From NCBI GenBank assembly GCA_963921795.1, contig OY997652.1, forward strand, positions 60,449,756 to 60,513,755: a stretch of DNA of 64,000 nucleotides, read 5' to 3'. A program made the translations under genes and the position numbers. This DNA comes from Nannobrachium achirus. Taxonomy: Eukaryota; Chordata; Actinopteri; Myctophiformes; Myctophidae. Shown here one piece after another: positions 2,456 through 32,208 of the stretch. Position 1 is the first letter of the stretch; each line of letters begins with the position of its first letter. The notes beneath the pieces are model-generated. The model was not told the DNA's origin. It worked only from the letters and a program-made list of their open reading frames with translations, and made no database searches.

Positions 2456-3661
2456 TTTTTATTATAGAGCTCTTATTGACAGACTTGTGTGCAGACACAC
2501 GAGGGAGGGAGAGAAGGAAAAATGCGACCGCCTTCGTTGAGAGCAGGTTCATGGTCATCACCATCAGGCTTCAAGTTGGCATTGACCCATGTACTTTGGA
2601 GATTCCAACAAATGTTCTTCCCCAGTCAGCAACAGGTAGATTGTGTAGGCCAAGGAACCCTTGACATTGTGACATCCTATAACTTATCGATATTCTTTTT
2701 TTTGTACCTGTTGCAAATTTCAGAGAAGTAACAGGAGGACATCAGTGTCTGGTGACCAAACACATATATCTCACAAAGCACCATAAGCAGTAGAGGCAAG
2801 GACTTGAGTAATCAGGGCCTATTCATGTGTGTGCACTTCCTCAAAATCATGTCCCTTGATGAATGTATTGTATTGTCTAACACAAAAAAATGTTATAAAT
2901 AATACTGAGAATACTAATAAACGTATACTTAAAAATGTTAAAAGTTTCAAAAAAAGTTTCAAAAAATATCCCATCAAGATTTGGCGGGCCCCCTGTAGTA
3001 ACTCTGAGGACCTCCCAGGGGTCCCGGACCCCCTGTGGAAGACCCCTGGTATTTGCTACTGCTCCTTTTTGTTTTCAAAGCCCAGCTACAACAACTTCTA
3101 TGCTTCAATTATGATCTGATTTAACATTGTTCTGGAGCAGGAGCAGAGCAATTACTGAGATAGGCTCAGGGGTCTGTCTGGGGGGTCCCAGGTGAGGAAA
3201 GACACCAACCAAAAGTCAGAAAGGTTATTCTGGCTGCTTTAAAAGTGTAATAAACAAACTCAGGATGTTTTAAAACCTACAAAACAACTCTAATATTATG
3301 AAAATTGGACATTAACTGGCTGGCGTACTGTTCTGGGTGGTCCCAAAAGAGATAACCCGCAGAAATGGGGTGGGGGTCCGGAATATTTTACACCCATCAT
3401 TTACTCATTTGATTCCTTGACCCAGAAAACATAGGATTGGCATGTTTAATTAAGTTTCTAGGTTGTCTAGAAGCCAAGATAGCACAAATTATGTATTTTA
3501 TGTCGGCCATTTTGAACGTCCAAAATGGCAGCTTTGCAGGTTTCTGTGCAAATGCAAACAAAGATTTCTGGATTCCCCATGCTCTGAAGATTCCAAAAAT
3601 GTATAGTTTTACTAATCCCCACAAATTTTGAACGAAAATACATAGTGAACCTGACTAGTCC

Positions 3662-6600
3662 GGTTCACTATGTTAAGGAATGTTTATTCGTTCAAAATTT
3701 GTGGGGATTTGTAAAACTATACATTTTTGGAATCTTCAGAGCATGGGGAATCCAAAAATCTTTGTTTGCATTTGCACAGACAACTGCAAAGCCGCCATAT
3801 TGGATGTTCAAAATGGCCGACATAAAATACATAATTTGTGCTATCTTGGATTCTAGACAACCTAGAAGCTTAATTAAACATGCCAATCCTATGTTTTCTG
3901 GGTCAAGGAATCAAATGAGTAAATGATGGGTGTAAAATATTCCGGACCCCCACCCCCTTTCTGGGGGTTATCTATTTTGGGACCTCCCAGAACAGTACGC
4001 CAGCCAGTTAATGTCAAATTTTCATAATATTAGTGTTGTTTTGTAGGTTTTAAAACATCCTGAGTTCATTTATTACACTTTTAAAGCAGCCAGAATAACC
4101 TTTCTGACTTTTGGTTGGGGTCTTTCCTCACCGGGGACCCCCCAGACAGACCCCTGAGCCTATCTCAGTAATCGCTCTGCTCCTGCTCCAGAACAATGTT
4201 AAATGATATCATAATTGAAGCATAAAAGTTGTAGCTGGGCTCTGGAAACAGAAATGAGTAGTAGCAAATAACAGGGGTCTTCCACAGGGGGTCCGGGACC
4301 CCTGGGGGGTCCTCATAGTTACTAATGGGGGTCCACCAAATCTTTATGGGATCTTCTTTTTTACATTTGAAACTTTTAATGTTTTTAGATATCCTGGGTT
4401 ATGTATTGTACTTTGCAGGGATTGCAATGATTAAGGTATTGCAACTTACTTTGGGTGTGCAGAACAACGTGTCTATTTATTGCACTGCACTACCCACTGA
4501 CAACACAACACGCACACCTCTTTGTATTGTCACCCCAAAACCCTCACCCTATCCAAAAGCCCATGGTCAATTATGCCCAAAGAGATTCACTACAATACAG
4601 TAATTTCAGACATGCAGGATCTATTCATCTTCATCATCATCATCATCATCTTCAATGTCCAACCTAATAGTGTTGACACAGTCTCCACCATAGCATAGAG
4701 TGAAAAGCAGGTTATTTGACTAGCTGCAACGTCCCTTGCAAACTGCTTTTCAGTCACATTATGAGCTCAAGTACTGCCTTTGGAGCAGGGAGGGCAAGAC
4801 ACCTGACTGGAACATACCCTCCACTCTCTGAATTCCATCTATTTTCTTCAATTGGTGGGCAATTTGACAGGTATGATTTATCCCTCATTGTAACGTAGTT
4901 GGCACAGAGGATATGTGGTAACAGTGCAGCACAAGTTGGAGGTAGCATCTGAGTTCCCATTTGAGTAATTGCAGGGTAGTTGGACCTTTCCACCTTATCT
5001 GTCATTGGATGATGCAAAAACATTGATCTATGCTTTTGTCTTCTCCAGACTAGACTATTGCAATGCACTTTTTTCTGGCCTACCAAAGAAAACTACAGAT
5101 CGACTTCAACTAGTCCAAAATGCAGCAGGGTGCTAACTAAAACTAAGATGAGAGAACACATCACTCCAGTTTTAGCCTTGTTACACTGGCTCCCAGTTGG
5201 TTTTAGGATTGATTTTAAAATTCTCTTACTTGTTTATAAATCTCTTAATGGTCTGGCACCGTCGTACCTCGTCGACTGCCTGTCTAGATATGAACCAAAC
5301 CGCCCCCTCAGGTCTTCTACTGCAGGTCTGCTCGATGTGCCCTCAATGACTTATAAGAAATATGGTGAAGCGGCTTTCTGTTTCTATGGGCCGACAGCCT
5401 GGAATAAACTTCCATCACACCTAAGACAGGCACCCTCTGTGGATAGCTGTAAAGCACAGCTTAAGACCTATTTTTACACTCTTGCTTTTGGGTGCCTGAT
5501 ATATTTTATGTCCACCCTGTCTGTAAAATGTTTTTATTATAGAGCTCTTATTGACAGACTTGTGTGCAGACACACGAGGGAGGGAGAGAAGGAAAAATGC
5601 GACCGCCTTCGTTGAGAGCAGGTTCATGGTCATCACCATCAGGCTTCAAGTTGGCATTGACCCATGTACTTTGGAGATTCCAACAAATGTTCTTCCCCAG
5701 TCAGCAACAGGTAGATTGTGTAGGCCAAGGAACCCTTGACATTGTGACATCCTATAACTTATCGATATTCTTTTTTTTGTACCTGTTGCAAATTTCAGAG
5801 AAGTAACAGGAGGACATCAGTGTCTGGTGACCAAACACATATATCTCACAAAGCACCATAAGCAGTAGAGGCAAGGACTTGAGTAATCAGGGCCTATTCA
5901 TGTGTGTGCACTTCCTCAAAATCATGTCCCTTGATGAATGTATTGTATTGTCTAACACAAAAAAATGTTATAAATAATACTGAGAATACTAATAAACGTA
6001 TACTTAAAAATGTTAAAAGTTTCAAAAAAAGTTTCAAAAAATATCCCATCAAGATTTGGCGGGCCCCCTGTAGTAACTCTGAGGACCTCCCAGGGGTCCC
6101 GGACCCCCTGTGGAAGACCCCTGGTATTTGCTACTGCTCCTTTTTGTTTTCAAAGCCCAGCTACAACAACTTCTATGCTTCAATTATGATCTGATTTAAC
6201 ATTGTTCTGGAGCAGGAGCAGAGCAATTACTGAGATAGGCTCAGGGGTCTGTCTGGGGGGTCCCAGGTGAGGAAAGACACCAACCAAAAGTCAGAAAGGT
6301 TATTCTGGCTGCTTTAAAAGTGTAATAAACAAACTCAGGATGTTTTAAAACCTACAAAACAACTCTAATATTATGAAAATTGGACATTAACTGGCTGGCG
6401 TACTGTTCTGGGTGGTCCCAAAAGAGATAACCCGCAGAAATGGGGTGGGGGTCCGGAATATTTTACACCCATCATTTACTCATTTGATTCCTTGACCCAG
6501 AAAACATAGGATTGGCATGTTTAATTAAGTTTCTAGGTTGTCTAGAAGCCAAGATAGCACAAATTATGTATTTTATGTCGGCCATTTTGAACGTCCAAAA

Positions 6601-6726
6601 TGGCAGCTTTGCAGGTTTCTGTGCAAATGCAAACAAAGATTTCTGGATTCCCCATGCTCTGAAGATTCCAAAAATGTATAGTTTTACTAATCCCCACAAA
6701 TTTTGAACGAAAATACATAGTGAACC
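3662..6726. mobile_element. Long-TIR DNA element, copy 2 (complete, 3.07 kb)
   Basis: Complete copy with inverted ends of about 730 bp: 3662-4390 against 5998-6726. The tips are GGTTCACTATGT and ACATAGTGAACC. TGACTA follows the right end of both copies and also lies just before copy 2 (3652-3657), so a 6 bp target duplication or a tandem duplication of the whole unit is possible. Between the arms are about 600 bases of unassigned sequence and the L2 LINE fragment. No transposase frame is visible. Arms match at roughly 90 per cent by eye. Confidence 0.8.
4990..5515 (+). mobile_element. L2-type LINE 3' fragment inside copy 2 (empty site for the Rex3-like insert)
   Basis: Same L2 C-terminal coding fragment as in copy 1, continuous here. 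The frame shifts once near 5128, so the part coding DYCNALFSGLPKKT and the part coding KTKMREHITPVLALLHWLPV lie in different frames. The sequence TTGTTTATAAATCTCTTAAT near 5230 is the unoccupied target of the LINE at 1144-2154. Confidence 0.75.
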
Positions 6727-6732
6727 TGACTA

Positions 6733-9816: not shown

Positions 9817-10477
9817 TTTCCAGCTGACAAAAGAAATGGAATGTATAGTTTAAGACAAAGAGAAAATATTGTTTAGATTGAAACAATATGTTAAGGTTTC
9901 TGTGAAGGGGTTTCTGCTCCGTCTGATGAATTTGAAGTATCACTGAATGAAGCTAAATTACATTTTATGTAAAAATGTTTAAAACAAATGTTTAAATGTA
10001 CAAAAGAAACATGGAACTTTGTTATTTATTGTTATATCTGTAGTTAAATACAGTATAAATCATATGGTGTGACAATCAAGTCATATGGCGTGACAAGCAG
10101 ACATGTCACACCATTATGATTAAGTGTCACACCATATTACGTTTTCTGCATTTAGGTTTACCTTGAGGCTACTATGTACACATTAGCATGCTAACAGCAT
10201 GCTAGCTATAACAAAGCAACCTAGATCTACATGGAAATATGACCAAAACTTCAAATAACTTAAGCTTTTTTTAATGAAAAGGTGTCACACCAACAGACAT
10301 CCAAAGTGGTGAGTTTGTCAAAGTTTCAACAAGATGGCATTTCATGAAAATGTTAAAATCATAACTGGTCAGGGTACTAAAGTATCGTTAGATTTTCAAT
10401 AGGAATTCAATTTTAAAAAATCATTTTTCTCTCAATTTTCTAATTTTCTAGCTCCCCATAAAATCAAATATTGGTTC

Positions 10478-10860
10478 ATTTTTCCAATTTCCTAGCTTGC
10501 AAAAAAATCAGGAAAATGCTTCAATTTTTTAAATGTGTGATTCATATTTGTCATTATTTGATTTGGAACCGACAAAGGAAAAACATCTTTAAAAAAGGTA
10601 TTTTTCATTTTTTACCACATTACGAATATCAAAAATGGACCAATTTTTCCAATTTTCTAGCTTGCAAAAAAATCAGGAAAATGCTTAAATTTTTTAAATG
10701 TGTGATTCGTCTTTGTCATTATTTGATTTGGAACCGACAAAGGAAAAACATCTTGAAAAAGGTATTTCTTAATTTCTTACCCCATTACAACAATCAAAAA
10801 ATGGGCCCATTTTTCCAATTTTCTAGCCCACAAAAAAATCAGGAAAATGCTTAAAATTTG
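10478..10860. repeat. Subterminal ~170 bp tandem repeat, 2-3 units
   Basis: Units share CAATTTTCTAGC, then GCAAAAAAATCAGGAAAATG, TGTGTGATTC, CATTATTTGATTTGGAACCG and ACAAAGGAAAAACATCTT. Starts are spaced about 170 bases apart (near 10494, 10660, 10826). Mirrored at 22690-22930 and partly at 13500-13740. Confidence 0.65.
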
Positions 10861-13746
10861 CTCAATTTTTTGAATGTGTGATTCATATTTTGGCATTATT
10901 TGATTTGGAACCGACAAACAAAAAATAGGCCCATTATTCAATTTTCAAGTCCAGGAAAGAAATCGTCATCATGAATGTCACGTGACCACGTGTCAAGTCA
11001 CATGGTACACAACTTCAAAATAAAAGCTGTAGGCTAGTCTAACATCCAACAAGTAATAGGATCAACATGCAGGCAGGCAGGGGGTCCATGAGGGGTTTAC
11101 AAGGGGGTCCATGGCTGGTTCCCAAAGTGTGGTTTGGGGACCCCCAGGGTTTCTATGGCTGGTTCACAACAGCCTGGTACACGTACAGCCATGGCTGGTT
11201 CCCAAAGTGTGGTTCGGGGACCTCTGGAGGTCCATGACGGATTTCCAAGGGGGTCCATGGCTGGTTCTCAAAGTGTGGTTCGGGGACCTCTGGGGGTCCC
11301 TGAGGGGTTTCCAAGGGGGTCCATGGCTGGTTAGCAATAAGTGTGTTTAATTGCGACCGTAGTAGGTCGCAGTTACTTTTACACTCTCTACTATCCAAAC
11401 CTCCACCAGCCGTCAGCCTGTCCTTCCCTCCGTCACGTCACTCGTCACACGTCACACTTTCCCCCTACTCATATCTCCGCCACCGTTGCCCCGATCCATG
11501 CCAAAATTTCCATACAAACTCCTTGCCTGCCAAACTACAACCTCGAAGGACCCCCGGAGCTCCAGGGACCCCCAGGTCCCTGGGGGACCCCCAGGTGTAA
11601 AAAATGACCAAATGTGCAAAAAAGACCACCCCAACGGGGCTGCTCACGGGGAATTCCCGGGGACCACCGACTCCTGGTGCTCCAGAACGGATGCAAAAGT
11701 GGTGGCGCCCCCAGTGGAGGACCCCCTCCACTCGCAGCTCACATAAAATGCCTTAACTCGGGCTAGGAGCGACCGGGAGAGCCGGGGCCGGTACCTATTC
11801 GTCCGCCTCGGCGGCGCGGAGACCCCACCTCTCATTTCTCATATGGCCCTCTTCTAGCGCCACCATGAGGCCGATTCTGCAAAACACATTTTTGGACACT
11901 GCTCCTAAAATTTTTGCCCTAAAATCACACAAATCGGTACACAGTATGTCTACACTCATGTCATCAACTTGGATCTGTCCCATATAGCGCCACCTTCAGG
12001 CCGATTTTTTAAAACACATTTTTGGACACTGCTCCTACAATCTTTGCCCTAAAATCACGCAAATCGCTACACAGTATGTCTACACTCATCTCATCAACAT
12101 GGATCTGTCCCATATAGCGCCACCTTCAGGCCGATTTTTTAAAACACATTTTTGGACACTGCTCCTACAGATTTTGCCCTAAAATCACGCAAATCGCTAC
12201 ACAGAGACACTGCTCCTACATATTTTGCCCTAAAATCACGCAAATCGGTACACAGTATGTCTACACTCATCTCATCAACATGGATCTGTCCCATTTAGCG
12301 CCACCTTCAGGCCGATTTTTTTAAACACATTTTTGGACACTGCTCCTACAGATTTTGCCCTAAAATCACACAAATCGCACAGTATCTCTACAGTCATGTA
12401 ACCAGTAAGACTCCCTAATCGGGAGATAAGCGACCGTAGGTCACATGTTTACACAAAGAGGGCTGTAACTGCCATTGGTTCCTAGTTGTGTGGGCAATGT
12501 GTAGACATACTGTGTACCGATGTGCGTGATTTTAGGGCAAAATCTGTAGGAGCAGTGTCCAAAAATGTGTTTTGCAAGAATCGGCCTCATGGTGGCGCTA
12601 GAAGAGGGCCATGTGAGAAATGAGGGGTGGGGTCTCCGCGTTGCCTTGGCGGACGAATAGGTACCGGCCCCGGCTCTCCCGGACGCTCCTAGCCCGAGTT
12701 ACGGCATTTTATGTGAGCTGCAGTGGAGGGGGTCCTCCACTGGGGGCGCCACCACTTTGGCATCCGTTCTGGAGCAGCAGGAGTCGGTGGTCCCCGGGAA
12801 TTCCCCGTGAGCAGCCCCGTTGGGGTGGTCATTTGGTCATTTTTGCATATTTGGTCATTTTTTACATCTGGGGGTCCCCCAGGGACCTGGGGGTCCCTGG
12901 AGGTCCGGGGGTCCTTGGAGGTTGTAGTTTGGCAGGCAAGGAGCGTGTGTGCAAAATTTGGCATGGATCGGGCCAACGGTTGCGGAGATATGAGCAGGGC
13001 AATAGTGTGACGTGTGAGGTGTGACAGACAGAGGGACAGACAGACAGACAGACGGACAGTTTGTGCAGGCTGTGATAGTAAGTAGCGACCTACGGTCGCA
13101 ATTACACTTATTGCTAACCAGCCATGGACCCCTTTGGAAACCCCTCAGGGACCCCCAGAGGTCCCCGAACCACATTTATTGCTAACCAGCCATGGACCCC
13201 CTTGGAAATCCGTCATGGACCTCAAGAGGTCCCCGAACCACACTTTGGGAACCAGCCATGGCTGTACGTGTACCAGGCTGTTGTGAACCAGCCATAGAAA
13301 CCCTGGGGGTCCGCAAACCACACTTTGGGAACCAGCCATGGACCCCCTTGTAAACCCCTCATGGACCCCCTGCCTGCCTGCATGTTGATCCTATTACTTG
13401 GATGTTAGACTAGCCTAGCCTACAGTTTTTATTTTGAAGTTGTGTACCATGTGACTTGACACGTGGTCACGTGACATTCATGATGACGATTTCTTTCCTG
13501 GACTTGAAAATTGAATAATGGGCCTATTTTTTGTTTGTCGGTTCCAAATCAAATAATGCCAAAATATGAATCACACATTCAAAAAATTGAGCAAATTTTA
13601 AGCATTTTCCTGATTTTTTTGTGGGCTAGAAAATTGGAAAAATTGGCCCATTTTTTGATTGTTGTAATGGGGTAAGAAATTAAGAAATACCTTTTTCAAG
13701 ATGTTTTTCCTTTGTCGGTTCCAAATCAAATAATGACAAAGACGAA
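10706..13746. repeat. 3.04 kb palindrome present in the left arm only
   Basis: TTCGTCTTTGTCATTATTTG at 10706 is matched by its complement ending at 13746. The arms run inward to about 11975 and 12480. The arms contain GGTCCATGGCTGGTT-type repeats (11090-11335; mirrored 13105-13375) and CCCGGGAATTCCCC-like and GGTACCGGCCCCGG-like stretches. In the right arm of the giant element the equivalent site reads GATTCGTCGGTCAGGGG with no palindrome (about 22680). The palindrome leaves no direct duplication, which fits deletion from the right arm as well as gain in the left. No coding frame beyond repeat-driven ones. Confidence 0.8.
11857..12410. repeat. 130 bp tandem repeat at the palindrome centre
   Basis: GCGCCACC-TCAGGCCGATT starts at 11857, 11987, 12117 and 12298. 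The spacing is 130, 130 and 181; the last unit holds a partial duplication of about 51 bases. Each unit also has ACACATTTTTGGACACTGCT, CCCTAAAATCAC and ACAGTATGTCTACACTCAT. One inverted unit lies at about 12490-12600. Confidence 0.85.
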
Positions 13747-13748
13747 GG

Positions 13749-13911
13749 TCAGGGGATCTTAGTATAATTGGATAATTCAATTTAAATCCAAAATAGAAAA
13801 ATCCATTTTTGTGATTTCTGTCCTCCCAACAAATTCAAAATAATCACATTTTGCCCCTTTTTAAAATTTTCAATTCAAATTGAATAACACAAATTATACT
13901 AAGATCCCATG
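13749..13911. repeat. 163 bp inverted-repeat module with GGTCAGGGGATCTTAG ends
   Basis: Begins GGTCAGGGGATCTTAGTATA and ends with the near complement (ACTAAGATCCCATGACC). The same CTTAGTATAATTGG motif recurs at about 13920 and 14045, and all four are mirrored in the right arm at about 22374, 22498, 22527 and 22663. The GGTCAGGG start echoes the tip of the whole element. Confidence 0.7.
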
Positions 13912-14339
13912 ACCGGGGGATCTTAGTATAATTGGGGTATTCAATTAGAATCAAATAAACAAAATTTGCTATTTTTTCAATTTTCGTTTAGAATTTAAAA
14001 ATTGTGAAAACGCAAATCAGAAAATCACAAAAACAGCCAGGTTGTCTTAGTATAATTGGGATATTCAATTTGAATAAAAAGAAACAGTAATTGGCTATTT
14101 TTCCAATTTTCGTTCAGAATTGAAAAATTGAGAAAACCCAAATAAGAAAATCACAAAAATGGCCAAAAATGTATTTGTGCACAAAAAAATCTGGAAAATA
14201 GGCCCATTATTCAATTTTCTAGTCAAGGAAACAAAATCAGCATCATCAATGTCACGTGACCACGTCACAAATCACATGGTCTACAACTTCAAAATAAAAG
14301 CTAGTCTAGCTCTAGTCTAACATCCAAGCAATAGGATCA

Positions 14340-14396
14340 ACAGGCATGCAGACAGGCAGGCAGGCAGACAGACAGACAGACAGACAGACACTTAGA
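14340..14396. repeat. (CAGG)n/(CAGA)n microsatellite
   Basis: Tetranucleotide run; its mirror is at about 22030-22085 as (GTCT)n/(GCCT)n. Confidence 0.85.
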
Positions 14397-14567
14397 ACAT
14401 TGACATACAGAGTTATAGAATGATGCCAATGACATACACTTTAATAAATATAAGTATTAATAACATTAATGATTATTAGTGCAGTCAGTCTGTACGGAGT
14501 AAAATCATCTGTGTTATTTTATCCATTAATAACTCTTGAGAGAGTATGAATTGAATTGGTTCCATTC

Positions 14568-14572
<5 letters not shown>

Positions 14573-14632
<60 letters not shown>
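14573..14632. repeat. (TC)n microsatellite in left arm
   Basis: About 30 TC units. The mirrored (GA)n in the right arm (21769-21854) is longer, so the two arms have drifted in length. Confidence 0.9.
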
Positions 14633-14634
<2 letters not shown>

Positions 14635-14925
14635 GTTAAATCAACACTCATGTTTTTTACTGTGTAGTTTCATGGGTGATATAATTCAGTTTATTATTAT
14701 GTATTACTTTACCCTATGCTCATACATATATTTAGAATCTATTTCTGATGTTATATTTGACTCTGTATTTAACTTAAAATGGGGGAACTACAATAAGCAC
14801 TAGTTATAAAGACTTCCTGGGGTCTATATCCAGGGACACTGTTGATGTCAGAAAATATTGTTTACAGCCTCTCAGTCTAGATTAATAAAAGCATAGCTTT
14901 GTTTTTGAGCAAAGCTCCAACATTT

Positions 14926-15343
14926 TAACCTGACTTTCGCCAGATGGTGGCAGCATTGCTTATGCCTGCATAACGCTCTGCTTTACCATCTGGTCTCGCT
15001 CCGGCAGAACCGATGTAAGGGGCGGGCCATTTTTTCAAATTCTATAGCAGGTGATTGGATATGGCCGTCTCTCTATCACAGTCTGGGAGTGCCAACTCCA
15101 ACCACTCATATTGGCCTGTCTGCATGACGTTGCACCCAGAATCCGCCTCCTGGGTTTCCACGTGGTCTGCAATCAGACTCTATTGGCTCAGAGCCGCTCA
15201 GAGCCCGCCCATAGCTGCCGCAGATTGGTCCGGCCCGTGGCTTTACGAGTGTTATCAACTCTGCCGGGAGCGAGCCCAGATGGTAAAGCAGAGCGTTATG
15301 CAGGCATAAGCAATGCTGCCACCATCTGGCGAAAGTCAGGTTA
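14926..15343. mobile_element. ~418 bp DNA transposon with 9 bp target duplication
   Basis: Starts TAACCTGACTTTCGCCAGAT and ends with its exact complement. Inverted similarity extends about 80 bases inward on each side (through GCATAACGCTCTGCTTTACC). It is flanked by CCAACATTT at 14917-14925 and 15344-15352. The right arm of the giant element keeps the unoccupied site (about 21478-21490). A 9 bp duplication with long inverted ends suggests a Mutator-like non-autonomous element; an 8 bp reading would also allow other superfamilies. No coding capacity. Confidence 0.8.
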
Positions 15344-15465
15344 CCAACATTTGGCATTGGGACGAAACATGGACAAACGCGTCCCGAAGCATGCCCTACA
15401 TCTGGCCTTCATCTTGTCACATAAGCCCCTTTTCCACTGCAGCTTTAGCACCACACCACAGTACA

Positions 15466-15530
15466 CCACACTACACCACACCACACCACACCGCACCACA
15501 TACAAATATCTACATTTTCCATTACACAAA
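15466..15530. repeat. (ACACC)n low-complexity run
   Basis: Repeated CACCACAC-type units, mirrored at 20190-20232. Confidence 0.7.
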
Positions 15531-15559
15531 AGTACCCCTTTCGGTAAGAAACAAATTGA

Positions 15560-15760
15560 CCCTTTTAACTGTGATTATAATACAATATAAATTTGTATTA
15601 CAACTATCATAAATTATAATACACTATAATGGATTATAACTGTGATTATAATACACTATAAAGTATTAATGTATCACTATGATAATTATAATACACTATA
15701 ATAGATTATAATAGTGGTTATAACACAATAGAATCTATTGTCGTGTATTACAACTATATC
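15560..15760. repeat. TATAATACACTATAAT-type repeats
   Basis: Irregular repetition of ATTATAATACACTATAATGG-like words; mirrored at about 19930-20150 and found again, detached, at 30470-30620. Confidence 0.7.
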
Positions 15761-15949
15761 CTGGTGGTCTAAATGAAAAGTCAGTGAGTGATCAGTCATT
15801 ATGAAGTGTTTGGCCCTGTTTGGCCTTGCTCAGACCTACTCTAGATTGGATACCTTTTAGTACCACGTTTAGTATCACTTTCACACCACTCTACCCAGTT
15901 TTTTTTTTTTTTTTTTTTTGCTGATGTGTTTTTGTACTTCCAAAAAATG

Positions 15950-16111
15950 TACAACATTTATGGGTGTTTTTATCCACCTCCCCCGGGGTCCCAGGAGTTC
16001 CCAGGCCAGTGTTCTCTCCATGTAATCCCTCCATCTAGTCTTTGGCCCCCAGACCACCCTATAGGGAGATGCTCAGGAGGCATCTATCTGTACTACAACT
16101 TAGGCATTTTA
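15950..16111 (-). mobile_element. RTE/Rex3-type LINE 3' fragment (left arm)
   Basis: Reverse complement of 19576-19745. Read on the minus strand it gives a GGPKTRWRDYMERTLAWELL-like peptide, close to the RPRTRWRDYISQLAWERL of the Rex3-like insert at 1144-2154. The poly-T at 15900-15919 would be beyond its 3' end. Confidence 0.6.
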
Positions 16112-16367
16112 TCTCACTTAAAAGAGCCGTTAAAAGATTGCCTCATTTAGCTAATTTGGTTCAGTGTATATTTATATATTTTTAAAATAATTAATTGAAA
16201 AATGAATTCACAAGGTGGCACCACATTCCTCTGTTGACAGTTGAGAGCACAATCTGGTATTTACCCTTTTCATAAAATGTGTGTGTAAATTAAGCTACCT
16301 TGACTTATGTTATTCATGCAACACCTCAAAAAACCAAGCAGGCAACAATGAAATCACTCCTCCCCTT

Positions 16368-16370
<3 letters not shown>

Positions 16371-16447
<77 letters not shown>

Positions 16448-16457
16448 GGCAGGCGGG

Positions 16458-16493
<36 letters not shown>

Positions 16494-16497
16494 CATG
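16371..16497. repeat. (TC)n followed by (GGCA)n microsatellite
   Basis: About 37 TC units, then about 12 GGCA units. Open frames across this run are low-complexity artefacts. Confidence 0.95.
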
Positions 16498-16564
16498 CTA
16501 ACATTGACATACATATATTATACTGCAATTTGGCAAGTTGCGGTTGGTTGTTTAAGTTGGACTG

Positions 16565-17620
16565 GTTAAACTGACACAATATGTCCATATGGGCATTCCC
16601 ACATATGGGCTTAATATTGATGGGTATAAAAGGGATTCTATTGTATGGGCATTCACAGATATGGGCTTAATATAAAAGGGATCAGATGTAGAGGTCATCT
16701 CCATATACTGTATGGAGATCTAGGTGATGATCCAGTTGTCTCCATGAATGGATATCCAGGATTTGATCTTTCATGAGGTGATGTCACGACAATGTGATGT
16801 CACAATGTCAACAGACAGGTCAACAGCTATTGTATGGGCAAACTCAATATGGGCTAATATTAATGGGCATAAAGGGATACTATTAGTGTGGTTGCCTTAA
16901 AAATGCATCATCTGGGAATCAGATGTAGAGGTCAGCTCTATGTATGGAGATCTAGGTGATGATCCAGTCGTCTCCATGTATGGATATCCAGGGTTTGATC
17001 TTTGATGAGGTGATGTCACAACAAATGTGATGTCACAATGTCAACAAACAGCAGATATAGACATTGAGGCGTTACTCACGGACAAGATACATACGGTTAA
17101 GATCTGTGGATTTTCATTGTAATATATACTAGTAAGACGCCTCAATTCGCCCCAATTCTTGGCCATCTGACCAGTGATGTATATCGGACCAGTTACCCAT
17201 AGGCCTTACATGGAGACCCCTACTGTATATGGAGATATGCTGTAAGAGCCCCAAAAAAGCTTACTCAGTTATCCGTCATGTGAAAGTCCTATGATGTCTA
17301 TGACATCTGACATCATACCCTTTTATGCCCACATGGAGATCCCTGTCTGTAGAACCAGCCACACATGGGCTGTCTTGGCCATATATGGATTCTGTTAGTG
17401 TGGCATGTGGCCGATGTGGCCTCCATATATGGGCATTCCCATTTGAATTTCTGTTAGATATGGGCATAAAAGGGATTCTGTTAGTGTGACATTGGTGAAG
17501 CCAGCATGTGATGTCAGAGTGGAAAACCCATTCTGTTACCCTGACGTTACAGTGACGTCAGAGTATGATGTCAGAGTGACAAACCCATAGAACCACAGTG
17601 TCAGGCGTTATAGACAGAGA
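16565..17620. repeat. Spacer repeats with TATGGGCA and a ~245 bp duplication
   Basis: ATATGGGCATTCCCA-like words recur. A block of about 150-245 bases (16684-16830) containing GATCTAGGTGATGATCCAGT and GATGTCACAATGTCAACA is repeated at 16922-17055. No coding frame. A related set of words (ATATATGGAGATATCTGTCT, GCCCATATATGG) appears at the very end of the window (63900-64000). Confidence 0.6.
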
Positions 17621-18120
17621 GAGAGAGATACATACTGTATATACATACGGACAAGCTGTGACCGTTCACATACTAATCTGCGACCTCGCAATTATTATTA
17701 TTATTAATAATAATAATAATGATTCTTAGTTATTAAGGGTAATAATGATTCTTAGTGTGGTCAATAGGCACTCTGTGCTGTTTTATACATTTTTAACTCT
17801 GAGAGAGTATAAATGGAACCAAATAAACCCTGTATGGGTCGATTTGGTTCTGTTTATACGCTCTCTCTCGAGTTAAATCAACACTCAGGTTTTTACTATG
17901 TAGTTTCATGGGTACTATTATTCAGTTTATTATTCTTAGGGCTGATTCATACTCCACTTTTAGAGACACATTTAGTTCTGGGAGTCACAAAATCTTGGTG
18001 GCACCGAACAGCTAAATTGATGACGGTACACGCCCCCCGATCCTCTGAATGACGCCATATCGTAGTTTAGACAGAGTCGAACCGAAATAAATTTGGCTCT
18101 AAAGTGGGGTATGCATCGGC
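17621..18120. repeat. (ATT)n run and third copy of an arm segment
   Basis: 17690-17725 is ATT-rich. 17790-17950 resembles 14520-14700 of the left arm: a GAGAGAGTATAAATGGAACC-like start, then GAGTTAAATCAACACTCAGG and GTAGTTTCATGGGT. The large TC run is absent here. Confidence 0.55.
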
Positions 18121-19190
18121 CCTTAGGCTTTTATGCTATAGGCTAGGTCAGGTCAAGGTCCCTTTCTGCCAACAATGGCACAGGGGAACCCACTGTCACA
18201 CTGGCAGAGGAGTGAGAGAGATCATTGCAGATTAGGTTGTCTTATAACCCTTAAATTCAACAAATTCTTTCAATGGACTAAAATCTTGTTTTATTGATGG
18301 CCTTCCTGCCCTGGCATTTGGCCTTTGTGCCCTCAAAAAATGGACAACACCAATGGCCAATTAAGTGGGCTTGGCCCTAAAATTACGAAATTCCAGGCCT
18401 GTCCTGCACATAATTCTACATCTATTAAAACTCTGAACTTTGACCGGGTAGGGAGTCGTGGAGATTGTTGGATTATTATTGTCTAATCGTTATAACAATG
18501 TCCTGCCAATCAAAATGTGTCAATATATTTGATGGCATCATTAAAATGAATTTTAACATGGCACACTGACAATCTTCTAGACAATAAAAACATAATTTGA
18601 TAAAGGTTGCTGACCCAAGGCTGCAAGGTTCAGCACTGGAAATGCATGCATGAAATAAAGACATTTGGACAGATCAGTAGGCTACAGTACAGAGCAGTAT
18701 CTGGACACTACTCATCTCCATAGTATGTCCCTACTGGCTGATAGTGGGTCGACTACTTCATACTGCAGGGAGACATGGTGACATTAACTTGTCACCTTCT
18801 CTCTCATGAAGCACATGATGAGGTATAGTGAGGTACTTGATATCTAACCCAGTACCTTCTGAATATGCCTGTGCATTGTATCGTGCTCCTTGTCACTGAG
18901 GCTAAGCCAGACCTTGTCTGTTTAATGGCAACATGCTGGATTCTGGAACACTGTCACTGTTCCCCAGCAGACTACCATAAAGATGCTGTAATGCGCATGA
19001 TGACACTGTGTACTGAACTTGTGTGTGAGTGGACTGACACTTTGTCCTTGACGGGGGGTGGCTGGTGAGCATAATGTACACAAGTGGAGACTACATTTAG
19101 TCATAGCGAGGCAGACATCACGATAAAATAAAGTTGTTTCAACTTTTTGTTCTCCCAGAGGTCAAATTTAACCTTGACCTGAACTTTAAT
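18121..19190. other. Spacer sequence with nothing recognised
   Basis: About 1 kb without a credible long frame, RNA gene or element end. The short frames at 18865-19068 and 18922-19104 show no known domain. Confidence 0.5.
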
Positions 19191-19199
19191 GTGTGATTG

Positions 19200-19770
19200 A
19201 CCTGATATGAAAAGTTAAAAAAAAGAAAAAAGTGTCCAAATCTGAGTCCATTGCTCTCAGCAGGGAACTGATAGATTGCACACTCCAGGTAGGGAGACCC
19301 CAGGTGAAGGAGTTCAGATATCTTGGGGTCCTGTTCATGAATGAGAGCGGAAAAAGGAGCTTCGGAGCAGCAGGAGCTGGCGGTCTCGGAATCGCACTGT
19401 TGTGAAGAAGAGAGAGTTGAGCTAGATTGCAAAGCTCTCAGTCTACCGAGCAATCTTTTGTTCCTACTCTCACCTATGGTCATGGAGTGTGGGTCATGAC
19501 TGAAAGTAACTCTTTTTATGCATTTGATGTACTGATGTTTATGTATTGACCTTGCTTATTATAAGTCGCGTCTGCTAAATGCCTAAGTTGTAGTACAGAT
19601 AGATGCCTCCTGAGCATCTCCCTATAGGGTGGTCTGGGGGCCAAAGACTAGATGGAGGGATTACATGGAGAGAACACTGGCCTGGGAACTCCTGGGGACC
19701 CCGGGGGAGGTGGATAAAAACACCCATAAATGTTGTACATTTTTTGGAAGTACAAAAACACATCAGCAAA
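19200..19770 (+). mobile_element. Decayed RTE/Rex3-type LINE fragment spanning spacer and right arm
   Basis: 19230-19500 aligns by translation with the Rex3-like protein: ESIALSRELIDCTLQVG, VKEFRYLGVLFMNESG, LTYGHGVWVMTES. 19585-19745 gives the C-terminal PKTRWRDYMERTLAWELLG. Between them (19510-19575) are unrelated bases ending GTCGCGTCTGCTAAATGCC, a word common at fish SINE/LINE 3' ends. Several frame changes are present. The inner limit of the right arm (19576) falls inside this region. Confidence 0.6.
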
Positions 19771-20310
19771 AAAAGAAAAAAGAAAAAGAAAAAAAGAAAC
19801 TGGGTAGAGTGGTGTGAAAGTGGTACTAAACGTGGTACTAAAAGGTATCCAATCTAGAGTAGGTCTGAGCAAGGCCAAACAGGGCCAAACACTTCATAAT
19901 GACTGATCACTCACTGACTTTTCATTTAGACCACCAGGATATAGTTGTAATACACGACAATAGATTCTATTGTGTTATAACCACTATTATAATCTATTAT
20001 AGTGTATTATAATTATCATAGTGATACATTAATACTTTATAGTGTATTATAATCACAGTTATAATCCATTATAGTGCATTATAATTTATGATAGTTGTAA
20101 TACACATTTATATTGTATTATAATCACAGTTAAAAGGGTCAATTTGTTTCTTACCGAAAGGGGTACTTTTGTGTAATGGAAAATTATGTTTATGTGGTGC
20201 GGTGTGGTGTGGTGTAGTGTGGTGTACTGTGGGCCGGTTCCTGGCATAGGCAACATAGGCGGTCGCTTAGGGCCACAACCATAAGGGGGCCACATCACAG
20301 GGAGAAGACT

Positions 20311-20348
20311 GCAACGCGTTTTGAGCTTGTAGATCAGCTATTTTTCAC
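20311..20348. repeat. Hairpin family half copy H2
   Basis: Only the right arm, GAGCTTGTAGATCAGCTATT, is kept, preceded by GCAACGCGTTTT. A second scrap (GCTTGTAGATCTATTTT) lies at 20585-20604. Confidence 0.65.
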
Positions 20349-21059
20349 TATATGCATTGTGGAGTGAGTGTGAAGTGGCCCTCTCGACATGTGGCCAAGA
20401 CCCGCAGGTTAATATCGGAATACTGATATATTATTGATTTCAGCTGTTACCCTTAATTACTTCAGTCTATAGTAGTAGCATAATGACCAGTGCTATAGTC
20501 TTTTTTGTCAATGTATTTGCATTTCATAAGGTTAACATACAAACATATAAATGTATTTGAAATTAAATAATGGATAATCGCAATGCTTGTAGATCTATTT
20601 TTTTGCAATATGCATTGTGGCCCTCTGGAGTGATTGTGAAATATAGTGGCCTTCTCCATCATCTAAGTTGCCCACTCCTACCCTACCCAATAAAATTAAG
20701 ATCTCACACAAGACACAACAGAATTGAAAATATGCCACATACTGTAGAGTTGAATAGGCCTACAAGTTGTGGTGTGTGATGTTTTGTATGAATCTGATTC
20801 AAATCAATTGTTGTTTTTTCTTGTTATAGCATTACACTCATGTTTTTGGACAAATTAAACAGTGTCTAGAAATAGATATGTATTATAATAGTTATATCTT
20901 GGTTTTGAAATGTTTTTCATTAGAGCATAGGCCTACATGTTTCTGTTTTAATAGCTTTTAACTAACCAGAGAGAATGATCTGATAATGTTTTACCTCCAT
21001 TGTAAACTTTATTGTGTGTTATAGGTAGAACTGTCTGATCTGTGCCAAAATGCAGATTT

Positions 21060-21175
21060 CTATGCATTTCTGGGGTTTTGACCGCCCTTCAAAACCCCAA
21101 TTTTTTTCGGCCGCCTGCCTTGCGGGCGTCCAGGATGTATCCCGTATTTGAATCTCTGGGAGTTGGCAACCCTAT
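21060..21175. mobile_element. Terminal fragment of the TAGGGTTGCCAAC hAT-like family
   Basis: Ends ATCTCTGGGAGTTGGCAACC followed by CTA, matching the right end of the element at 59879-60685. Also shares the CGCCTTGCGGGCG/CGCCTTTGGCGACG hairpin stretch. Confidence 0.55.
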
Positions 21176-21766
21176 GTGTAGTTAGTAGATACATGCTTGA
21201 GTGCTAACAACAGACACCACATGTTCTACTAGATAGAAGAAGACGTTATTATTTATCACTTTGGTTTTGGCGATTCAAAGACAGTTAATAAGTGCGCGCG
21301 TCCGTCAGTGGGGGGCCACCTAAAATAATCTCGCTTAGGGCCACCTGAACCCTAGAACCGTCCCTGACTGTGGTGTGGTGCTAAAGCTGCAGTGGAAAAG
21401 GGGCTTATGTGACAAGATGAAGGCCAGATGTAAGGCATGCTTCGGGACGCGTTTGTCCATGTTTCGTCCCAATGCCAAATGTTGGAGCTTCGCTCAAAAA
21501 CAAAGCTATGCTTTTATTAATCTAGACTGAGAGGCTGTAAACAATATTTTCTGACATCAACAGTGTCCCTGGATATAGACCCCAGGAAGTCTTTATAACT
21601 AGTGCTTATTGTAGTTCCCCCATTTTAAGTTAAATACAGAGTCAAATATAACATCAGAAATAGATTCTAAATATATGTATGAGCATAGGGTAAAGTAATA
21701 CATAATAATAAACTGAATTATATCATCCATGAAACTACACAGTAAAAACCTGAGTGTTGATTTAAC

Positions 21767-21768
<2 letters not shown>

Positions 21769-21854
<86 letters not shown>
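21769..21854. repeat. (GA)n microsatellite in right arm
   Basis: About 43 GA units, mirror of the shorter TC run at 14573-14632. Confidence 0.95.
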
Positions 21855-21857
<3 letters not shown>

Positions 21858-23039
21858 GAATGGAACCAATTCAATTCATACTCTCTCAAGAGTTATTAAT
21901 GGATAAAATAACACAGATGATTTTACTCCGTACAGATTGACTGCACTAATAATCATTAATGTTATTAATACTTATATTTATTAAAGTGTATGTCATTGGC
22001 ATCATTCTATAACTCTGTATGTCAATGTTCTAAGTGTCTGTCTGTCTGTCTGTCTGTCTGTCTGCCTGCCTGCCTGCCTGCCTGCATGCCTGTTGATCCT
22101 ATTGCTTGGATGTTAGACTAGAGCTAGACTAGCTTTTATTTTGAAGTTGTAGACCATGTGATTTGTGACGTGGTCACGTGACATTGATGATGCTGATTTT
22201 GTTTCCTTGACTAGAAAATTGAATAATGGGCCTATTTTCCAGATTTTTTTGTGCACAAATACATTTTTGGCCATTTTTGTGATTTTCTTATTTGGGTTTT
22301 CTCAATTTTTCAATTCTGAACGAAAATTGGAAAAATAGCCAATTACTGTTTCTTTTTATTCAAATTGAATATCCCAATTATACTAAGACAACCTGGCTGT
22401 TTTTGTGATTTTCTGATTTGCGTTTTCACAATTTTTAAATTCTAAACGAAAATTGAAAAAATTGCAAATTTTGTTTATTTGATTCTAATTGAATACCCCA
22501 ATTATACTAAGATCCCCCGGTCATGGGATCTTAGTATAATTTGTGTTATTCAATTTGAATTTAAAAATTGAAAAAGGGGCAAAATGTGATTATTTTGAAT
22601 TTTTTGGGAGGACAGAAATCACAAAAATGGATTTTTCTATTTTGGATTTAAATTGAATTATCCAATTATACTAAGATCCCCTGACCGACGAATCACACAT
22701 TTAAAAAATTTAAGCATTTTCCTGATTTTTTTGCAAGCTAGAAAATTGGAAAAATTGGTCCATTTTTTGATATTCGTAATGTGGTAAAAAAATGAAAAAT
22801 ACCTTTTTTAAAGATGTTTTTCCTTTGTCGGTTCCAAATCAAATAATGACAAATATGAATCACACATTTAAAAAATTGAAGCATTTTCCTGATTTTTTTG
22901 CAAGCTAGAAAATTGGAAAAATGAACCAATATTTGATTTTATGTGGAGCTAGAAAATTAGAAAATTGAGAGAAAAATGATTTTTTAAAATTGAATTCCTA
23001 TTGAAAATCTAACGATACTTTAGTACCCTGACCATAACT

Positions 23040-23600: not shown

Positions 23601-23935
23601 CTTTGTGTGTATCTACACCAGGGGTCTTCAACAGGGGGTCCGGGACCCCATAGGGGGAGGCACCAGATCTATGTGTGATGGGACCATTCTTTTAGAATAA
23701 ATTAACAACCCTCTCATCCCTTTTCTGAGGAGAACTTTAGCCAAAAATAGCAGATCTACAAGCTTGTAGATCTGCTATTTTTGGCAAATAGGTTTGGTGT
23801 AGAGGTAAAAATAAGAGTGGACAAAGTATAGAGTAAAGGTCAAATTTACTAAGTAAATGATCAAGGACATAAGGAGTAAAATGACTGAAAAATATAAAAT
23901 AAAAAATAAACGTCCCAAAAAGCGCAGTTTTCAAA
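23600..23935. other. Element-end fragment, then AT-rich sequence
   Basis: 23620-23670 has CAGGGGTCTTCAACAGGGGG followed by TCCGGGACCCC, like the words inside the long-TIR element at 170-220. The rest, apart from H3, holds nothing recognised. Confidence 0.5.
23740..23785. repeat. Hairpin family copy H3: perfect 46 bp palindrome
   Basis: GCCAAAAATAGCAGATCTAC continues to the centre CAAG|CTTG and its exact complement follows, with no loop. It is the core of the family with the inner CTCACAAC part missing. Confidence 0.9.
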
Positions 23936-23939
23936 CTCT

Positions 23940-24541
23940 AATGGGCGCTGGACAGCAGGCGGCTCTCCATGTCGGCATTTTTGACCCACGCACGTGTTCG
24001 GGGACACCTCTTCCACACCACACTCTACGCTAAGCATTGCTGCAACCGCTGCAGGCCGTCCAGTGCAGCCAGGCGCTCAAAAAGGCCTCAAAATGCGCAA
24101 TTTTTCGACTAGTGGGCGCTAGAGAGCAGGCGGCTCTTCGTGTCGGCACTTTGGACCCACGCATGCGTTCGGGGAGATCTCCTCTTCCACACTACACTCT
24201 CCGCGTTAGCGGGAGAGGCGTTATTGCAACTGCTGCTGGCCGTCCAGTGCGGCCAGGTGCTCAAAACGACCTCAAAAGGCGCCATTTTCAGACTCTTAAT
24301 AGGCACTGGACAGCAGGCGGCTCTCCGTGTCGGCATTTTTGACCCATGCACGTGTTCGGGGACACCTCCTCTTACACACCACACTCTCCGCTAAGCGGGA
24401 GAGGCGGCATTGCAAGTGCTGCTGGCCGTCCAGGTCCAGGCGCTCAAAACCGCTTCAAAAGGCGCCATTTTCAGACTAGTAGGCCCTGGAGAGCAGGTGG
24501 TCTTCGTGTCGGCACTTTGGACCCACACGCGTTCGGGGAGA

Positions 24542-24542
<1 letters not shown>
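23940..24542 (+). repeat. GC-rich ~185 bp satellite, about 3.3 units
   Basis: Each unit has GGACAGCAGGCGGCTCT, CGTGTCGGCA, TTCGGGGA, CTTCCACACCACACTCTCCG, GGGAGAGGCG and GGCCGTCCAGTGC. Unit spacing here is about 180-190. Several CpG sites are kept. Confidence 0.85.

Positions 24543-24594
<52 letters not shown>
24543..24594. repeat. (GT)n microsatellite
   Basis: About 26 GT units ending the plus-oriented satellite block. Confidence 0.95.
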
Positions 24595-24596
<2 letters not shown>

Positions 24597-24892
24597 GCAT
24601 TCAAAAGAAAAATCATAACACATTATAAACCATTCTATGACTTACTGTATATGGTAAAGGATAAATGCAGTAACACTGTGTAATTACTGTTATAAGCATT
24701 CATGAGTGCTCATAATGCATTCATAATACATTATGAACCATGTTACATTATCTGGTTAACATATACTCTTATCAGCTTGTCAACACTATACTATATACTG
24801 CTTGTTATAACAAAGTACAATTAATATCATGCAGAATTCAGTTCAACCTTTTGGTCCACAACAATATTTTCTGCTGTTCATGTGGCCCCATA
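24595..24892. other. AT-rich spacer between opposite satellite blocks
   Basis: About 300 bases without satellite units; ATAACACATTATAAACCATT and ATAATACATTATGAACCATG are related words. No gene seen. Confidence 0.5.
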
Positions 24893-26475
24893 GAACCTTT
24901 TGAAGCGGTTTTGAGCGCCTGGCCGCACTGGACGGCCAGCAGCAGTTGCGATGCCGCCTCTCCCACTTAGCGGAGAGTGTGGTTTGGAAGAGGAGATCTC
25001 CCCGAACGCGTGTGTGGGTCCAAAGTGCCGACACGAAGACCCGTCTGCTCTCCAGTGCCCACTAGAGTCTGAAAATGGCGCCTTTTGAGGCCGCTTTGAG
25101 CGCCTGGCCGCACTGGACGGCCAGCAGCACTTGCAATGCCACCTCTCCCGCTTAGTGGAGAGTGTGGTGTGGAAGAGGAGATCTCCCCGAACGCGTGCGT
25201 GGGTCCAAAGTGCCGACACGAGGACCCGCCTGCTCTGAAAATGGCACCTTCTGAAGCATTTTTGAGGACCTGGCTGCACTGGACGGCCTGCAGCAGTAGC
25301 AATGCTGCCTCTCCTGCTAAGCGGAGAGTGTGGTGTGACAGAGGAGGTCTCCCTGAACGTGTGCATGGGTCAGAAGTGCCGACACGAAGAGCCGCCTGCT
25401 CTCCAGTGTCCACTAAATTCTGAAAATGGCGCCTTTCTAGGCCTTTTTGAGCGCCTGGCTGCACTGGGCGGCCTGCAGTAGTTGCAATGCCACCTCTCCC
25501 ACTTAGCGGAGAGTGGTGTGACAGAGGAGGTCTCCCTGAACGTGTGCATAGGTCAAAAGTGCCGACACGAAGAGCCGCCTGCTCTCCAGTGCCCACTAAA
25601 GTCTGAAAATGGGGCCTTGTGAGGCATTTTTGAGCGCCTGGCTGCACTGGACGGCCTGCAGTAATTGCAATGCCACCCCTCCCGCTTAGCGGAGAGTGTG
25701 GTGTGGCAGAGGAGGTCTCCCTGAAGGCGTGCGTGTGTCCAAAGTGCCGACACGTAGAGCCGCCTGCTCTCCAGTGCCCACTAGAGTCCGAAAATGGCGC
25801 CTTTGAGGCATTTTTGAGCGCCTGGCTGCACTGGACGGCCTGCAGTAGTTGCAATGCCGCCTCTCCCGCTTAGCGGAGAGTGTGGTGTGGCAGAGGAGGT
25901 CTCCCTGAACGTGTGCATGGGTCAAAAGTGCCGACGTGAAGAGCCGCCTGCCGTCCAGCACCCACTAGATTCAGAAAATGGCGCCTTTCTAGGCCTTTTT
26001 GAGCACCTGGCTGCACTGGGCGGCCTGCAGTAGTTGCAATGCCACCTCTCCCACTTAGCGGAGAGTGTGGTGTGACAGAGGAGGTCTCCCTGAACGTGTG
26101 CATGGGTCAAAAGTGCCGACACGAAGAGCCGCCTGCTCTACAGTGCCCACTAAAGTCTGAAAATGGTGCCTTTTGCGGCATTTTTGAGCGCCTGGCTGCA
26201 CTGGATGGCCTGCAGTAATTGAAATGCCGCCTCTCCCGCTTAGCGGAGAGTGTGGTGTGGTAGAGGAGGTCTCCCTGAATGCGTGCATGGGTCAAAAGTG
26301 CCGACACGAAGAGCCGCCTGCCGTCCAGCACCCACTAGATTCAGAAAATGGCTTTTTGAGCACCTGGCTGCACTGGACGGCCTGCAGTAGTAGTCTGGTG
26401 TGACAGAGGAGGTCTCCCTGAACGCGTGCATGGGTCCGAAGTGCCGACATGAAGAGTTGTCTCCTGTCCAGTGTC
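24893..26475 (-). repeat. GC-rich 185 bp satellite, about 8.6 units, opposite orientation
   Basis: The landmark CTTAG-GGAGAGTGTGG falls at 24966, 25151, 25317, 25502, 25685, 25869, 26054 and 26239, giving spacings of 185, 166, 185, 183, 184, 185 and 185. The last unit is cut short. Runs on the minus strand relative to 23940-24542. The 295-codon minus frame at 24967-25854 is a by-product: 185 is not a multiple of three, so successive units are read in different frames. Confidence 0.9.
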
Positions 26476-26825
26476 CAATTTGTAAAGGCTATGCACTCTA
26501 TTGAACATCATTAATCCATTTATATAATTTTGTTGTTATTAAAACTTTTTTATTTTACCCAAAAACATAATTATCATTGTGTATGTTCGTTTAAATGCTT
26601 AATCTATGTTTTGAATGTGCATATCATGTGAAAATGTATCGTTTTTCAAAAATGTTCAATTGGCTGAGGGGTACTCTTATTCTGAAGAGATATCCTTATA
26701 TTCGCCAGTTTCACAGAAGCAGAGAGACCTACAGCCATACCTGCCTCTCACATACACAGAAAGGTAGACGCCTCTTCCGGCTGGGGGGTGCTGGTCTGTG
26801 CCTGCCTCTCTTCAAGAGCTGCGTG
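26476..26825. other. Flank of the satellite block, no gene
   Basis: Starts GTCCAATTTGTAAAGGCTAT. The same word follows the small satellite unit at 27290 and is inverted at 27065. 26510-26700 resembles 27310-27490 (ATAATTATC/GTTGT, TTAAATGCTTAATCTAT, TATTCTGAAGAGAT). Confidence 0.5.
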
Positions 26826-31947: not shown

Positions 31948-32208
31948 CTCCCCCCCTTCAAAACAGGGTCCCACAGGGAACCCTGGCCTAACTCGTGCCA
32001 CCAATAACCACATATTAACTACCATAACTGTGTACATAATTAAGTATACATGGGCCCCACTAAAACTAACCCCCCCAGCTCAATTCTCCATTCAGCTTCT
32101 GCCCCACCCTCTCTCAGCAACTGGTACCTTGGAGCCTTTAAGAGAAAGGTTAAGGCATACACAAAACAGATTTTGAATACAGAGTTAATCTAAGGGGCAC
32201 TAAGTAAA

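Follow-up and report, generated by a model that had tools for sequence, protein, structure and literature searches.

Whether a long inverted repeat flanked by a clean target duplication represents one transposon or several is the question raised by a 12.67 kb structure at 10361-23039 of a 64,000 bp stretch of the fish Nannobrachium achirus (contig OY997652.1, positions 60,449,756 to 60,513,755; this whole stretch is referred to as the window, and coordinates are those of the window unless stated otherwise). In the original prediction, made from the letters of the window, the structure was taken as a single element with arms of 2.35 kb, bounded by a 6-bp duplication, ATAACT, and possibly a very large non-autonomous foldback element or one whose gene was lost. 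Here we report that it consists of two foldback DNA transposons of one kind, nested, with element B (13747-22686) lying inside the right arm of element A. The architecture of this nest, the copies of A and B in the genome, the sites into which B inserts and the likeness of both elements to known systems were analyzed, focusing on how the nest was formed and on what may have directed B to its site.

Architecture of the nest

The outer boundaries were borne out. GGTCAGGGTACTAAAG starts at 10367 on the forward strand and its reverse complement ends at 23033, with one match each within the window, and both ends adjoin ATAACT, found by sequence match at 10361-10366 and 23034-23039; the outermost 248 bp of the arms are complementary at 99%. 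Self-comparison of the window showed that 10706-13746, earlier taken as a 'single-arm insertion', is an inverted repeat belonging to A. Its far end is GACGAA, next to which GGTCAGGGGATCTTAGTAT begins, and an inverted GGTCAGGGGATCTTAGTAT ends at 22686, with a second GACGAA directly behind it. With its own tips and its own 6-bp duplication, 13747-22686 is thus a complete element, B. When B and one GACGAA were removed, the arms of A aligned in a single piece of 1,608 columns at 93.8%, and A, flanked by ATAACT, amounts to 3.7 kb in total (10367-13746 plus 22693-23033). The 2.35 kb arm of the original prediction combines two pieces, the outermost 345 bp of A and the ~1.95 kb arm of B, and the inner tips with their GACGAA duplication show that it does not belong to one element. 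The arms differ at 54 of 1,563 aligned sites in A and at 18 of 1,925 in B. The foldback structure, the 6-bp duplication and the non-autonomous kind stand as first proposed, and the single element is replaced by B inserted in A, so that both the earlier observation and its interpretation are supported in part.

Copies of A and B in the genome

The assembly containing the window (1.66 Gb, 564 contigs) was used for all genome searches. A look for other copies, which had been suggested together with the original prediction, was rewarded with 311 exact A tips (158 on the plus and 153 on the minus strand) and 121 exact B tips (67 plus and 54 minus), against no control matches for either tip, and with copies carrying 6-bp duplications. 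The search for A ends returned 499 candidates, of which 40 were scored, with 41 best match rows at 98-100% identity. Among the 21 A end pairs in L009-L028, 15 have an exact 6-bp duplication, one has a 7-bp duplication (L014i) and five have none (L013, L027, L019a and both alternative pairings of L028). The first 100 exact A tips listed fall into 44 pairs and 12 unpaired tips; among those 44 pairs the median span is 5.08 kb and 29 pairs span 3.6-5.3 kb. Among the A tips listed, six other pairs at 10-17 kb and one at 48.8 kb (C2:38392881-38441691) enclose B tips, and the last of these, with ten exact B tips inside, is a nest built over several rounds.

Over the first 950 bp, 30 of 38 A arms have a relative within 0.55%, some arms differing by just 0.1%, and for 34 of 38 the closest arm is one from a different copy and not the partner in the same copy, the exceptions being L012_R, L021_L and, as ties, L021_R and L027_R. 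From these close relatives between copies, A appears to have spread recently as intact copies. Homogenisation of the arms within a copy was considered and rejected on the same 34 of 38 arms; in the outer 600 bp, the mean arm distance within copies is not larger than that between copies.

The search for B ends returned 122 candidates, and scoring of the best 40 gave 22 insertions, comprising 18 paired insertions (that of the window included) and four single ends, two of which, C7s and C4s, were later found with partner tips in the B tip list. One B copy, L037, measures 7,486 bp. Its arms are ~1.97 kb long, and its spacer matches the B of the window at 97-99% in two long stretches. The A tip had no match in viral contigs and the B tip none in prokaryote genomes. 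No description of the tip was found among the papers listed in literature searches, and among the listed papers with the string GGTCAGGG and 'transpos' none was on such a transposon.

A and B are alike in several features. Both tips start with GGTCAGGG, both elements make 6-bp duplications, and the long arms of both contain subterminal tandem units, 165 bp long in A and 126 bp in B; behind these units, they share a stretch of ~160 bp at 85-87%. GGTCAGGGNNNTNNAGTAT, allowing at most two mismatches, has six matches in the window (0.37 expected), all located at the ends of A or B or just inside the ends of B. A third, diverged subfamily, A', is ~85% identical to A and also hosts B. It was seen in the flanks of the B copies C8s, C4b, C9b and C4s (loci L066, L056, L032 and L052), with the tip GGCCAGGGTACTAAAG in C8s and C4b and GATCAGGGTACTAAAG in C9b. 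A further family, sought by tips with the base A or C at position 9, was rejected, since its three matches equalled the three control matches.

Insertion sites of B

Flanks of B copies were compared by BLAST with A and B reference copies in three batches. The first comprised the B copies most like that of the window, the second was chosen from the exact B tip list, and the third contained 20 more ends, which include three pairs and were counted as 17 insertions (L121 and L125 are possibly two ends of one) and for which the reference set additionally contained two A' pieces. A total of 39 of the 49 sampled insertions lie in A-, A'- or B-family DNA (21/22, 8/10 and 10/17 by batch). In the first batch, all 18 paired insertions are nested on both sides, together with three of the four single ends, and 16 of the 18 pairs have exact 6-bp duplications; C7s, which is counted here, lies outside A/B DNA on both sides. 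Eight of the ten further insertions of the second batch are nested on at least one side, and the remaining two, C6h and C15h, have the exact duplications AAAACA and TCCTCC. Exact 6-bp duplications were found in six of the 11 two-sided rows of this batch, rows that include C7s, C4s and the doubtful pair C20h3, which combines an outer tip from each of two B copies and has just one nested side. In the third batch, ten insertions are nested (two weakly) and seven are not, and all three pairs, read by eye, have 6-bp duplications (CAAAGG, CATAAG and TACCCT, the last inside an A tip).

Two of the 39 nested insertions rest on weak matches (L123 at 73% and L125 at 72%), and L122, with a match of 36 bp only, was scored as not nested. 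L111 is without a BLAST match, but an A tip was read at this end, and the opposite end, L110, does match A. L016 was found via its A tip and excluded from the 49. At C4s and C20h2, the outer A' arm stands in mirror image on both sides, without duplications, which recombination between two B copies in two arms of one A' would explain. In the control, three of 21 A copies (that of the window included) have an adjoining A-family flank, L014i on both sides and L028 and L019 on one side, and the difference between 39/49 for B and 3/21 for A in A/B-family DNA is significant (Fisher p = 4e-7).

The position of B within its host is also restricted, as 15 of the 17 placeable two-sided insertions on an A-type arm fall in one 11-bp register of the 165-bp repeat (12/12, 3/4 and 0/1 in the three batches). 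Among the 12 of 18 pairs of the first batch that could be placed on an A-type arm, ten are cut at 331-341 of the arm. The other two, C3 at 172 and C20 at 499, are cut at equivalent positions in a neighbouring unit, that of C20 being the third and longer one, where the motif described below is 25 bp distant. C17h, C20h1 and C6h3 of the second batch are in register and C6h2 is not. The cut of L016 is at ~546, adjoining the third copy of the motif, and three insertions in B arms (C2b, C508a and C508b) lie at 292-300.

A 19-bp motif, TTTGTSATTWTYTGATTTG, was derived by aligning the A target with the B target. Allowing up to three mismatches, its matches in the window number ten, against 0.44 expected, and each lies within an arm of A or B. 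Three lie on the plus strand in the left arm of A, at 10547-10565 (unit 1), 10712-10730 (unit 2, the left-arm counterpart of the site of B) and 10889-10907 (unit 3, one mismatch), and three on the minus strand in its right arm, at 13545-13563 (one mismatch), 13722-13740, which adjoins the B insertion and abuts GACGAA, and 22835-22853 in the outer part. The remaining four are in B, at 14013-14031 and 14139-14157 (one mismatch) on the minus strand of the left arm and at 22276-22294 (one mismatch) and 22402-22420 on the plus strand of the right arm. With zero to two mismatches, the motif lies no more than 25 bp from the cut in 18 of the 22 sites of the first batch, the misses being C4b, C4s, C7s and C8s.

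Formation of the nest and alternative explanations

We consider it probable, at about 0.7, that A and B are related non-autonomous foldback families and that the nest was formed by B landing in A, steered by subterminal repeats. A first inserted into ordinary DNA (ATAACT) and B then into the right arm of A (GACGAA), giving the 12.67 kb nest. Under this model, a DDE-type transposase encoded at another place in the genome would act in trans to cut and join both elements. The nesting, the tips, the duplications, the copy numbers, the enrichment and the register are observed. B prefers subterminal repeats, be they those of A, of its diverged relative A' or its own, and within A it mostly uses one 11-bp register per 165-bp unit, near TTTGTSATTWTYTGATTTG, which is also repeated in the arms of B. 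The protein that moves B most likely binds this motif in the arms and would thereby tether the B integration complex to sister elements, and the 165-bp repeat of A would steer that transposase to the register. In a stronger form of this model, B would be a 'transposon hunter', a eukaryotic DNA transposon that finds a subterminal repeat motif of its own kind through its integration complex, lands preferentially in sister elements with a register of about ten bases and so builds up growing nested arrays; this form has in our judgement slightly better than even odds.

Several observations weigh against such steering. The nested share was 29/32 before the third batch and was lowered by it, and the first batch (21/22) exceeds the later ones (18/27) with p = 0.015. 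Ten of the 49 insertions have no A/B flank, and four of these (C6h, C15h, the C21 pair and the C4:55.6 Mb pair) have exact 6-bp duplications. The A control is not fully parallel, as its flanks were 350 bp long and the A' pieces were absent from its references, and short matches of 32-82 bp at L011, L013 and L018, which are not adjoining, are uncounted in it. B insertions within one cluster are not fully independent. Two placed sites are off register, namely C6h2 and the C19 pair, which sits within an A tip. A second cluster of sites, formed by C6h2 with L121 and C20h3 (on one side), lies at ~212-218, beyond the opposite end of the motif by 13-19 bp. In the second batch, the motif is present without mismatch in four of 12 rows (C17h, C20h1, C6h2 and C6h3), and the other eight have at least five mismatches; as a single A target and a single B target gave rise to it, the motif counts of the first batch are partly circular, and the similarity of the two targets alone is not significant, being reached by 13 of 100 shuffles. 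A shares the tip start and the duplication length with B but does not use the register, so that one transposase for both is not obvious, and no transposase for these tips was found in the frames and copies read. Since the later batches are less nested and the clustered insertions are not independent, the preference of B for A/B DNA is strong but not exclusive, and it may be greatest in the youngest subfamily. Because the sites tested were of the same type as those that yielded the motif, and the target similarity is not significant alone, TTTGTSATTWTYTGATTTG is a lead for a targeting signal and not proof of one.

The alternative that survives best, which we regard as unlikely, is that one B-in-A composite was formed once and then spread by transposition of A or by recombination between A copies. 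A copies of composite size do exist, and identical duplications recur in different copies (ATGTGT in C7a, C8c, C3 and C17h; TGTGTG in C5 and C8b). However, the A-hosted sites have at least eight different 6-bp duplications (GACGAA, AAAATT, GTGTGA, CACACA, ACATTT, ATGTGT, TGTGTG and TCAAAC), several of which overlap by all but one or two bases, the outer flanks of eight host A tips are all different, and B also sits in B arms, as in C2b, C508a and C508b. Furthermore, B copies at the same site (C5 with C8b, and C7a with C8c) are not mutual nearest relatives. C5 is outside the four nearest of C8b, and the nearest of C8b, C8c, has another duplication, although the distances of C5, C7a and C9b are inflated by unrelated inserts. 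Clearly less probable is a random insertion of B, with survivors only in harmless places such as dead transposons. Nesting in repeats is indeed common in general, but survival cannot yield an 11-bp register in a 165-bp unit (15/17), which A copies in the same genome do not show, and 39 of 49 nested insertions have p = 7e-69 even when A/B DNA is assumed, generously, to make up 1% of the genome. Big inverted repeats are hard to assemble, but misassembly as the source of the nest is very unlikely because the arms have diverged and because A, B and B-in-A copies are found elsewhere in the assembly, where many unlinked copies, on contigs the size of chromosomes, have exact duplications. A single foldback element of 12.67 kb, for all its intact outer tips and ATAACT, is ruled out by the inner tip pair with its own duplication, by arms of A that are continuous without B, and by separate A copies of 3.7-5 kb and a B copy of 7.5 kb.

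If the steered landing of B holds, B would use other selfish elements as its landing site, and the nest would offer a young natural system for how transposase binding sites steer integration, as well as an account of the stepwise growth of large inverted repeats. For annotation, the locus is a warning that two elements can look like one long inverted repeat, even where the target duplication is good.

Search for a transposase

The earlier statement that the spacer holds no transposase agrees with our results. Pfam analysis of 20 of the 40 frames of at least 70 amino acids inside the element gave no match above cut-off, to a transposase or otherwise, and the weak matches below cut-off were to DUF725, Atrophin-1 and DUF3915. 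An internal transposase in other copies had also been suggested as something to look for, and none was seen in those read for long frames: inspection by eye, without Pfam, of the long frames of the larger A and B copies found no transposase-like frame inside the elements, and L085 has no frame of at least 140 amino acids. One A copy, L015, contains an insert resembling a long interspersed nuclear element (LINE). As no transposase was seen in the copies read, A and B both look non-autonomous from their sequence.

Comparison with known systems

A and B belong by structure to the foldback class, having very long inverted arms with internal tandem repeats, and the mobility of this class is seen in their many copies with constant tips and target duplications. 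They were matched to no family here, and the target preference is unusual. A likeness to the landing of B is found in the bacterial insertion sequences IS4321 and IS5075, which have an IS110-type recombinase and insert into the terminal inverted repeats that bound a different transposon; it lies in the landing in the ends of another transposon, and no relation is shown.

Long arms with internal tandem repeats are also present in Galileo and Foldback of Drosophila. Galileo makes 7-bp duplications, and A and B differ from it in their 6-bp duplications, their GGTCAGGG tips and their fish genome. The P superfamily is marked by a P-type transposase with a THAP domain, and Pfam gave no transposase in the 20 of 40 window frames tested. 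Galileo is placed in the P-element superfamily, and its transposase domain has binding sites in the arm repeats (PMC3688188). Mutator-like elements (MULEs) resemble A and B in their long inverted arms, and multiple or tandem arms are known among them (PMC3310237); MuDR/IS256 duplications are 4-10 bp long (PMC10045372), so that 6 bp alone does not exclude MULEs. The insertion preference of B is, however, opposite to that of the coding MULEs of maize and rice, which rarely insert in other transposons (PMC3903597).

Among systems with 6-bp duplications, the Dada DNA transposons, which also occur in fish, have RNA genes as strict targets, and Dada-U6 and Dada-U1 are without terminal inverted repeats (PMC3706591, PMC8869645). 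The duplication length of A and B fits Dada, whereas their long inverted arms do not, and an Rfam scan, of the window only, made with the small RNA gene targets of Dada in view, found no family. IS3EU usually makes 6-bp duplications and its complete families always end in TA..TA, in contrast to the GG..CC ends of A and B (all 21 A end pairs listed, and the B ends), while GingerRoot, with usually 6-bp duplications, ends in TA..TA or TG..CA (PMC10045372). Polinton, with a 6-bp duplication (PMC10045372), fits in length; the frames tested contained no polymerase or integrase gene, though a gene-less derivative could lack them. The duplication length also fits hAT6, for which 6-bp duplications are reported (PMC12730594) and of which one protein is named in passing (PMC3942097).

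Internal structure of A and B

The left arm of A (10367-11955, plus strand, tip GGTCAGGGTACTAAAGTATCG) is alignable with the right arm over 1,589 bp and contains the 165-bp tandem units within 10460-10925 and 66-bp units within 11189-11332. The centre of A (11956-12498) consists mainly of 130/181-bp tandem repeats, and its tested frames gave no Pfam transposase. The right arm, on the minus strand, is separated by B into an inner part (12499-13746), recognised from the self-comparison and the arm alignment, and an outer part with the right tip (22693-23033). Elsewhere in the genome, L014 is an A copy within an A copy, with the 7-bp duplication CATGGAC, located in the 66-bp repeats of A and outside the register used by B.

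B is an 8,940 bp foldback element in the right arm of A with tips GGTCAGGGG, and its GACGAA duplications lie at 13741-13746 on the left, where they are A sequence, and at 22687-22692 on the right. A small inverted repeat makes up its first 168 bp, and the second tip of that repeat, at 13896-13914, is degenerate. The left arm (plus strand) comprises an outer part at 13747-14925, including the 126-bp units at 13921-14159, and an inner part at 15344-16109, and the right arm (minus strand) an inner part at 19577-20232 and an outer part at 21367-22686. Long stretches of the spacer (16110-19576) recur in the B copies L037, L083 and L084, and the spacer frames tested were likewise free of a Pfam transposase. 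Both arms are interrupted by later insertions, one of 418 bp in the left arm (14926-15343) with inverted ends TAACCTGACTTTCGCCAGATGG and a 9-bp duplication, CCAACATTT, and one of ~1.13 kb in the right arm (20233-21366) with a duplication of ~5-7 bp (CACAG). Frames of the 418-bp insertion are also present in the C7 copy of B (L083), and because of this recurrence the insertion may be older than the spread of the B lineage shared with that copy.

Neighbouring features of the window

To the left of the nest, 1-1143 is repeated at 4098-5240 (99.9%) and 2155-3657 at 5230-6732 (100%), and a 1.46 kb palindrome (91%) lies at 2930-4387. The repeats suggest that 1-6732 either was duplicated in tandem very recently, with loss of an internal segment, or is a duplication made in assembly. 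Tandem repeats were found to the right of A (23908-26477), among which the block 23908-24544 matches the array 24896-26477 in inverted orientation at ~80%. Direct repeats of 423 bp at 31527-31949 and 33941-34363 (99%) surround a frame of 295 amino acids, and 31527-34363 is presumably a small long terminal repeat element. Fish genomes have zinc-finger clusters, and long C2H2 zinc-finger frames that resemble one another are located at 41404-42918, 53654-54739 and 61661-62449.

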